Below, piece by piece: positions 1-35,714 of a stretch of DNA of 40,726 nucleotides. The stretch's first letter is position 1, and each line of letters starts with the position of its first letter. The translations under genes and the position numbers were made by a program. The DNA lies in NCBI GenBank assembly GCA_021829835.1, contig JAKBPE010000009.1, positions 1 to 40,726 on the forward strand, read 5' to 3'. The notes beneath the pieces are model-generated. The model had not been told where the DNA came from, did not search any database, and saw only the letters and a list, made by a program, of their open reading frames with translations. Origin of the DNA: a bacterium. GTDB taxonomy: Archaea > Micrarchaeota > Micrarchaeia > Micrarchaeales > CABMGC01.

Positions 1-89
1 AGAGCCTGGTCAAATGCGGCGGACTCAAGATCCGTTGGCTTAGGCCTACGAGAGTTCAATAAACATTTGAACAAATCTCTCTCCCTGCA
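1..89 (+). tRNA. tRNA-Leu(CAA), 5' end outside window, intron in T-loop
   Basis: The window opens inside the D-arm. The anticodon arm reads GCGGA-CTCAAGA-TCCGT, giving anticodon CAA. A long variable arm and discriminator A fit a class II leucine tRNA. The T-stem GAGAG/CTCTC encloses 22 bases instead of 7. Removing 15 bases restores TTCAAAT, exactly the T-loop of the other four tRNAs in this window. The acceptor 3' strand is TCCCTGC. The 5' acceptor strand lies before the window, so that pairing cannot be checked. Confidence 0.85.
59..73 (+). other. putative 15-base tRNA intron in the T-loop
   Basis: Between the two T-stem strands the sequence runs TTCAATAAACATTTGAACAAAT. Removing 15 bases leaves TTCAAAT; the exact cut can be at 58-72, 59-73 or 60-74, which give the same product. 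TTCA pairs with TGAA, a four-base central helix with short bulges on either side, as expected for an archaeal bulge-helix-bulge splice site. Position within the T-loop is non-canonical. The intron call is an inference from structure. Confidence 0.7.
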
Positions 90-110: not shown

Positions 111-851
111 ATGGCTAAAAAACCCCTCTCCAAAAAAACGACAAAAAAACCAAAGACAACAAAAAAAGAAAACAAATTCCTATCTAAAATAAAGAAAACA
201 AAAATAAAGGACAAAGTAATGTTCGAATTGCCTCATTATCCACAGAGCGATGAGTTTACTAGTTCTGCAGCATCGGCAATGATGGTGTTGAAGTTTCTTA
301 ATGACAGCTTTAAGTTCAAGAAGGAAAATGAATACATGATATGGCAGGAGTCTGTAAACGGAAGTGTCTGGCATGGTTCCAAGTACGGGCTTGCCTTTGC
401 ACTTGCAAAGAGAGGTGCAAAAATAGGGATAATAAGCAATACCAAGGATGAAGGATATGAAAAGAAGATGGCTGTTTATGAGAATGTAAATCTTGATACC
501 CTCGCATCTTCATTCAACGAAATACGCACAAAAGCCCAGGATATAGGCATAGAAGAAGAACATGGCCAGGTAACCATACAGATGATAAAGAAGGCACTTT
601 CAGCCAATACAATACCAATAGTGGTGATAGATGCGAATTCTATAAATTCCTATCTTGAGTCATCTCCACACTGGATAGTTGTAAAAGGATACGATAAAGA
701 TGCTTTCTATATAAATGACCCATACTCGGACAGCACAATAACTATAGACTACAATGTCTTCAAGTCATCACTGGGATATGACAGCGACATGCACATGATA
801 GTCGCAGATGCAAAATTCTTCGATTCGAAAAAGGCAAAAGAGACTAAATAA
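111..851 (+). CDS. peptidase C39-like domain protein, catalytic Cys replaced
   Basis: This 246-residue protein starts with a Lys/Thr-rich tail (about 1-35) followed by a domain resembling the C39-like cysteine peptidase fold. The segment PQSDEFTSSAASAMM (about 44-58) aligns with the usual QxDxxTCGPAxLxM active-site helix, but the nucleophile position holds Ser (about residue 51) and the Gly-Pro is Ser-Ala. The later His-containing strand SPHWIVVKGYD (His about 187) and the NDPY segment are kept. It therefore looks like a binding or pseudo-enzyme form rather than a working Cys protease. No signal peptide is visible. It lies 21 bases after tRNA-Leu and converges with the next gene, stop codons six bases apart. 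The family call is from motif memory and fairly sure; the role is unknown. Confidence 0.6.
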   Translation: MAKKPLSKKTTKKPKTTKKENKFLSKIKKTKIKDKVMFELPHYPQSDEFTSSAASAMMVLKFLNDSFKFKKENEYMIWQESVNGSVWHGSKYGLAFALAKRGAKIGIISNTKDEGYEKKMAVYENVNLDTLASSFNEIRTKAQDIGIEEEHGQVTIQMIKKALSANTIPIVVIDANSINSYLESSPHWIVVKGYDKDAFYINDPYSDSTITIDYNVFKSSLGYDSDMHMIVADAKFFDSKKAKETK

Positions 852-15797: not shown

Positions 15798-15893
15798 CGC
15801 CAGGGTAGGGATTTGAACCCTAAAAGCCCGAAGGCCATACGCTTGCAGGAAAAATTTCCAGGCGTACGCGTTACCAGATTCTGCCACCCTGGC
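15798..15893 (-). tRNA. tRNA-Ser(GGA) with a 12-base intron
   Basis: The acceptor stem GCCAGGG/CCCTGGC is perfect, the T-loop is TTCAAAT, and a long variable arm marks class II. Discriminator G fits serine rather than leucine. The anticodon stem TACGC/GCGTA encloses 19 bases; removing 12 after position 37 gives loop CTGGAAA with anticodon GGA. A TATA-like TTATATAT lies some 30-40 bases upstream on the minus strand. Confidence 0.88.
15844..15855 (-). other. 12-base intron of tRNA-Ser, canonical 37/38 site
   Basis: On the minus strand the insert reads ATTTTTCCTGCA after A37. Its TTCC can pair with GGAA of the anticodon region, giving the central helix of a bulge-helix-bulge. Excision restores a normal seven-base loop. 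Confidence 0.75.
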
Positions 15894-35604: not shown

Positions 35605-35714
35605 TGGGCCCAGTGAGATTTGAACTCACGACATCTGGCTTTCTTAGTTTAATGAAACTTTTATCCAAAGTTCCTTATAAGACCAGCGCTCTGACCAGGC
35701 TGAGCTATGAGCCC
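35605..35714 (-). tRNA. tRNA-Ile(TAT) with a 35-base intron
   Basis: Acceptor GGGCTCA/TGGGCCC, D-arm GCTC/GAGC, T-arm with TTCAAAT and discriminator A all fit isoleucine. Anticodon stem CTGGT/GCCAG encloses 42 bases; removing 35 after position 37 leaves CTTATAA with anticodon TAT. Most archaea read AUA with an agmatidine-modified CAT tRNA, so TAT is unusual. TATTTAAAT lies about 20-30 bases upstream on the minus strand. Confidence 0.88.
35641..35675 (-). other. 35-base intron of tRNA-Ile, 37/38 site
   Basis: The insert starts GGAACTTTGG after the first part of the loop and ends before the last base of the loop. It includes AACTTT and AAAGTT, which can pair to form the inner helix. Excision restores the seven-base loop CTTATAA. 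Confidence 0.75.

Follow-up and report, generated by a model that had tools for sequence, protein, structure and literature searches.

The tRNA-Leu(CAA) gene at the contig edge

The window, by which we mean the whole stretch of 40,726 nucleotides that was analysed, is contig C38 of an 89%-complete MAG, and it opens within a tRNA-Leu(CAA) gene, 11 bases past the start of that gene. The features of this gene and of its downstream neighbour are as follows.

1..89, +: tRNA-Leu(CAA) gene without its first 11 nt; the acceptor stem GCAGGGA/TCCCTGC closes, and the discriminator base is A89
1..59, +: window part of the 5′ exon, ending in TTCAA (tRNA positions 54-58)
26..28, +: anticodon CAA, in the loop CTCAAGA (24-30)
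50..54, +: 5′ strand of the T-stem, GAGAG
54..57, +: GTTC, exonic half of the central 4-bp helix (tRNA positions 53-56), the invariant partner, pairing in 121/121 distinct introns
60..74, +: predicted 15-nt intron TAAACATTTGAACAA, with predicted cuts between 59 and 60 and between 74 and 75; register 58/59 alone fits all 121 distinct introns
69..72, +: GAAC, intronic half of the central helix; relatives have only GAAC, GAGC, GGAC, GAAT and GGGC
73..75, +: AAA, a 3-nt bulge in the RNAfold structure, with the predicted 3′ splice site after its second A
75..89, +: 3′ exon, consisting of AT, the T-stem strand CTCTC (77-81), the acceptor strand TCCCTGC and A
111..851, +: gene for a C39-peptidase-like protein, directly downstream of the tRNA gene and its neighbour in 100/103 relatives' loci

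The original prediction had proposed reading the bases before the window and folding the full tRNA. Contig C35 ends in 77 bases identical to window 1-77, and the missing 11 nt at the 5′ end are C35:10924-10934, so that the gene begins at C35:10924 with GCAGGGATGGC; when C35 and the window are joined, the whole gene is 100 nt long and the acceptor stem closes. The T-stem strands GAGAG and CTCTC enclose exactly 55-76, the 22 bases that had been claimed, and the claimed 15-base deletion (60-74) does yield TTCAAAT, the T-loop that the window's other four tRNAs all have. Excision of the insert produces the complete cloverleaf of a normal tRNA-Leu(CAA). A TATA-like element upstream of the gene is conserved in congeners.

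ARAGORN found no tRNA in the intact 100 nt and called tRNA-Leu(CAA) after deletion of 60-74. With its intron option, which covers the anticodon loop only, it made no call on the full gene, and the Rfam tRNA model also missed it; a T-loop intron explains why both miss Leu(CAA) in these genomes. Because ARAGORN also accepted many neighbouring deletions of 13-16 nt in the T-loop region, it cannot by itself set the intron boundaries, and these were set by the comparative data.

Distribution and history of the insert

We searched the order with a pattern that did not require the insert. tRNA-Leu(CAA) was found in 143 of 164 genomes, including all 51 with at least 90% completeness, by a pattern that could miss divergent genes and in relatives many of which are only moderately complete. 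Of the 144 genes that were parsed, from two families of the order, 136 have an insert, always at one site (counts are of genes, not of independent events), and the exons are conserved. The inserts are 10-21 nt long, the minimum of 10 nt being one case (G023), and comprise 121 distinct sequences. Among named relatives, the insert occurs in Micrarchaeota MAGs, in Ca. Micrarchaeum sp. A_DKE and in a few genomes labelled Marsarchaeota; the A_DKE genome is complete, and its Leu(CAA) gene carries AATAATATTTATGGACAA. The Leu T-loop intron is order-wide and not peculiar to one genome.

The eight intronless genes have a plain 7-base loop, TTCAAAT or TTCGAAT. They occur in four genera, three of which have other species that keep the intron, so clean loss has probably happened several times. 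Since Leu(CAA) is also intronless in outgroup families of the same class (G249-G252, G264), gain of the intron probably predates the split between the two families. What these genes record is the history of a tRNA intron, with a probable gain near the base of the order, several probable clean losses and turnover of its sequence.

Splice register and predicted structure

Each of the 121 distinct Leu introns has, two bases short of its 3′ end, a 4-mer that pairs with exon GTTC; pairing with GTTC at five other offsets was found in none of the 121. The intron 4-mers opposite GTTC (GAAC, GAGC, GGAC, GAAT or GGGC) are all wobble-compatible; the exon strand is invariant, and the support for pairing consists of one-sided wobble changes only. 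The remaining intron positions are near random, except for an A-rich start. Jointly, the 121 introns permit one register only, with the intron between TTCAA and AT, i.e., 58/59; register 59/60 is impossible in 34 of them, including that of the window, and was rejected. Applied to the sequences, a rule that places both cuts two nucleotides beyond the 4-bp helix yields TTCAAAT for 121/121 introns.

The original prediction had placed a four-base helix, TTCA/TGAA, at the flanks of the insert. A 4-bp helix is indeed predicted, but its identity is GTTC (54-57)/GAAC (69-72); the cut sites of a TTCA/TGAA central helix would leave a 9-base loop. Unconstrained RNAfold predicts a 4-bp outer helix GAGA/TCTC, the AAA bulge and a GTTCAA/TTGAAC hairpin, and the energy of this T-arm (-8.1 kcal/mol) was attained by 0.55% of shuffled inserts. 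The predicted Leu precursor is a bulge-helix-loop, i.e., a relaxed bulge-helix-bulge without a separate 5′ bulge.

A TTCA/TGAA helix suits tRNA-Arg(UCU), one of two further tRNA genes of this genome that ARAGORN calls only after excision of a T-loop intron. These are tRNA-Arg(UCU) with a 23-nt intron (C30:30614) and tRNA-Ala(GGC) with a 31-nt intron (C10:4936). Among 30 relatives in which Arg(UCU) could be read to the 3′ exon (a count that omits G022, whose intron ran beyond the examined stretch), the intron is present in 24 and absent from six, and the TTCA/TGAA-type helix is kept in 24 of 25 Arg introns, the window's genome included. The Arg and Ala introns fit register 59/60, one base later than the 58/59 of Leu. 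In Arg, helix and predicted cut are both shifted by one base, in keeping with the archaeal enzyme's two-nucleotide rule, and these one-base shifts between Leu and Arg make the enzyme's ruler rule directly testable.

Splicing model, enzymes and alternatives

Of 60 relatives, 57 have the PF01974 endonuclease domain, and it usually takes up two stretches of one ~390-aa protein. In a congener, the protein encoded at L198:6648-7808 has PF02778 and two PF01974 stretches, i.e., an N-terminal unit and two C-terminal-type units in one chain, and its best match, end to end, is ARMAN-2 4FZ2 (E=1e-143). The epsilon2 enzyme invoked by the original prediction is therefore present in the lineage, but the gene was not found when we searched the window's 89%-complete MAG. 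Also absent from this MAG is radA, the neighbour of endA in the congener, and the MAG has no DNA match to the congener's 8-kb endA region except a dispersed repeat. Since radA and the 8-kb neighbourhood are missing too, we attribute the missing endonuclease most likely to a gap in the assembly, and its absence was dropped as an argument against splicing. That intron and epsilon2 enzyme arose together was rejected, because a protein of similar size and composition occurs throughout the class, including outgroups with an intronless Leu(CAA). Several outgroups (G257, G258, G262, G263 and others) have a second, short endonuclease homologue (~150-230 aa) beside the long, epsilon2-sized one.

The ligase gene rtcB (C35:9279-10772, - strand; PF01139, E=4.7e-164) lies head-to-head with tRNA-Leu(CAA), 151 bp upstream. 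This arrangement occurs in 40/103 loci and, among loci of known family, in 8/8 of the first family and 0/15 of the second. The intron occurs in both families, and adjacency to rtcB was rejected as a requirement for it. The head-to-head pair is kept in the window's family, and a common promoter region is possible. In some relatives, RtcB is interrupted by an intein of ~500 aa (PF14890 within RtcB; L107:3556-6576 and L109:2628-5774, both on the - strand, and perhaps L094 and L099).

The locus is very probably a working tRNA-Leu(CAA) gene, interrupted between T-loop positions 58 and 59 by a 15-nt archaeal intron of the protein-spliced kind. This reading had been proposed from the window's DNA alone, and the shared site in 136/144 orthologues, the constant pairing and register, and the clean intronless orthologues all argue for it. 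From the computed gene anatomy, position, pairing, conservation and lineage enzymes, we infer cutting, ligation and an order of maturation. Pairing of exon GTTC (53-56) with GAAC of the intron would leave the precursor with an outer helix, a 3′ bulge of 3 nt, the central helix and a terminal loop. Cleavage by the epsilon2 endonuclease would fall two nucleotides downstream of the exon strand of the central helix (between AA and T) and, on the other side, after the second nucleotide of the 3′ bulge (between AA and A); the exons would then be ligated by RtcB, so that TTCAAAT would be back in place before the T-arm is modified. In the red alga Cyanidioschyzon merolae, a T-arm intron prevents formation of pseudouridine-55 by Pus4 in vitro (PMC9602550), which by analogy makes splicing ahead of T-arm modification plausible in Leu(CAA).

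We consider it very unlikely that the insert is retained and that the mature tRNA works with an enlarged T-loop. The T-stem is intact in the precursor, as this would require, but the length and sequence of the insert vary freely while the features of the splice motif are fixed, and intronless orthologues have a standard T-loop. A retained insert would also part positions 58 and 59 of a loop that keeps its nucleotides and fold across all domains of life (PMC7912444). Even less credible is a pseudogene or decayed tRNA copy, to which the failure of ARAGORN and the Rfam tRNA model to see the gene might point; the exons are conserved over two families, acceptor and T-stem pairing is retained in 80/80 named loci, and UUG codons are in use (38 in 13 window ORFs). 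A second intact Leu(CAA) gene, which in the original prediction would have marked this copy as a pseudogene, was searched for in the assembly and none was found. An assembly artefact, suggested by the position of the window's first base at a contig edge and by the exact 77-base overlap there, is refuted for practical purposes by independent assemblies, since congener G002 has the same gene with the identical 15-base insert unbroken within one contig, and related inserts are found both in the interior of contigs and in the complete Ca. Micrarchaeum sp. A_DKE genome.

Introns in the T-loop of archaeal tRNAs, and the cleavage of relaxed motifs by epsilon2 enzymes, are already known. Reviewed archaeal tRNA introns lie at 56/57, 59/60 and elsewhere and measure 11-129 nt (PMC4090602), and both canonical and relaxed motifs have been noted in archaeal T-loop introns (PMC6379350). 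The noncanonical T-loop introns of Thermoproteales and others (PMC4090602, PMC6379350) are likewise short, with a relaxed motif and a loop restored by excision; in contrast to their positions (e.g., 56/57, 59/60), the Leu intron is at 58/59 and in a Micrarchaeota host, and, against the reviewed range, it goes down to 10 nt and occupies one gene across nearly the whole order. T-loop interruptions with BHB-type motifs are also known from the introns of C. merolae and the T-loop-permuted tRNAs of Thermofilum, the permuted genes being broken at 59/60 (PMC9602550, PMC3218864), but these are other lineages, and the Thermofilum genes are rearranged whereas Leu(CAA) here is not. According to the accessible portions of two sources (PMC4033280, PMC12397907), the ARMAN-1/2 epsilon2 enzyme, which this lineage shares, cleaves relaxed motifs at various positions, and bulge-helix-loop substrates are documented for it (4FZ2, 9W2K); the test substrates named in those portions are pre-tRNA-Ile and pre-tRNA-Cys, and we found there no test of a Leu T-loop substrate. 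The order provides ~120 natural variants of a minimal predicted epsilon2 substrate. As judged from sequence comparison, the order-wide fixation, the 10-nt minimum and the paired, helix-linked registers 58/59 and 59/60 appear to be new; we did not find them described in a comparison outside which the 2011 ARMAN tRNA-intron paper stood.

Selection might keep T-loop introns in the order, for example by breaking the tRNA 3′ halves at which integrating elements attach or by delaying T-arm modification until splicing, although we think this unlikely. The genome has four tRNA 3′ fragments without 5′ halves, resembling tRNA-Asn (L037, C32), a Val-like tRNA (L038, C22), tRNA-Ala (L039, C14) and tRNA-Glu (L042, C22), and none resembles any of the three tRNAs with T-loop introns; four fragments are too few to bear on the attachment-site idea. 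Such fragments probably mark the attachment sites of integrated elements or belong to split tRNA genes.

Other tRNA genes of the genome also have introns. ARAGORN calls window 15798-15893 (-) and L034 as intron-bearing Ala(GGC) and Ile(GAT); judged by the loop, the long variable arm and the 3′ G, they look instead like Ser(GGA) and Ser(UGA), each with an intron at 37/38. At window 35605-35714 (-) there is a tRNA-Ile with the anticodon UAU, by sequence, and a 35-nt intron in the anticodon loop; most archaea have a modified CAU anticodon in place of UAU for tRNA-Ile. Finally, an intergenic repeat of ~125 bp occurs at several genome sites and is 82-83% alike between congeners (L198:5646-5770, G000:C6:88860-88984, C30:40366-40486).
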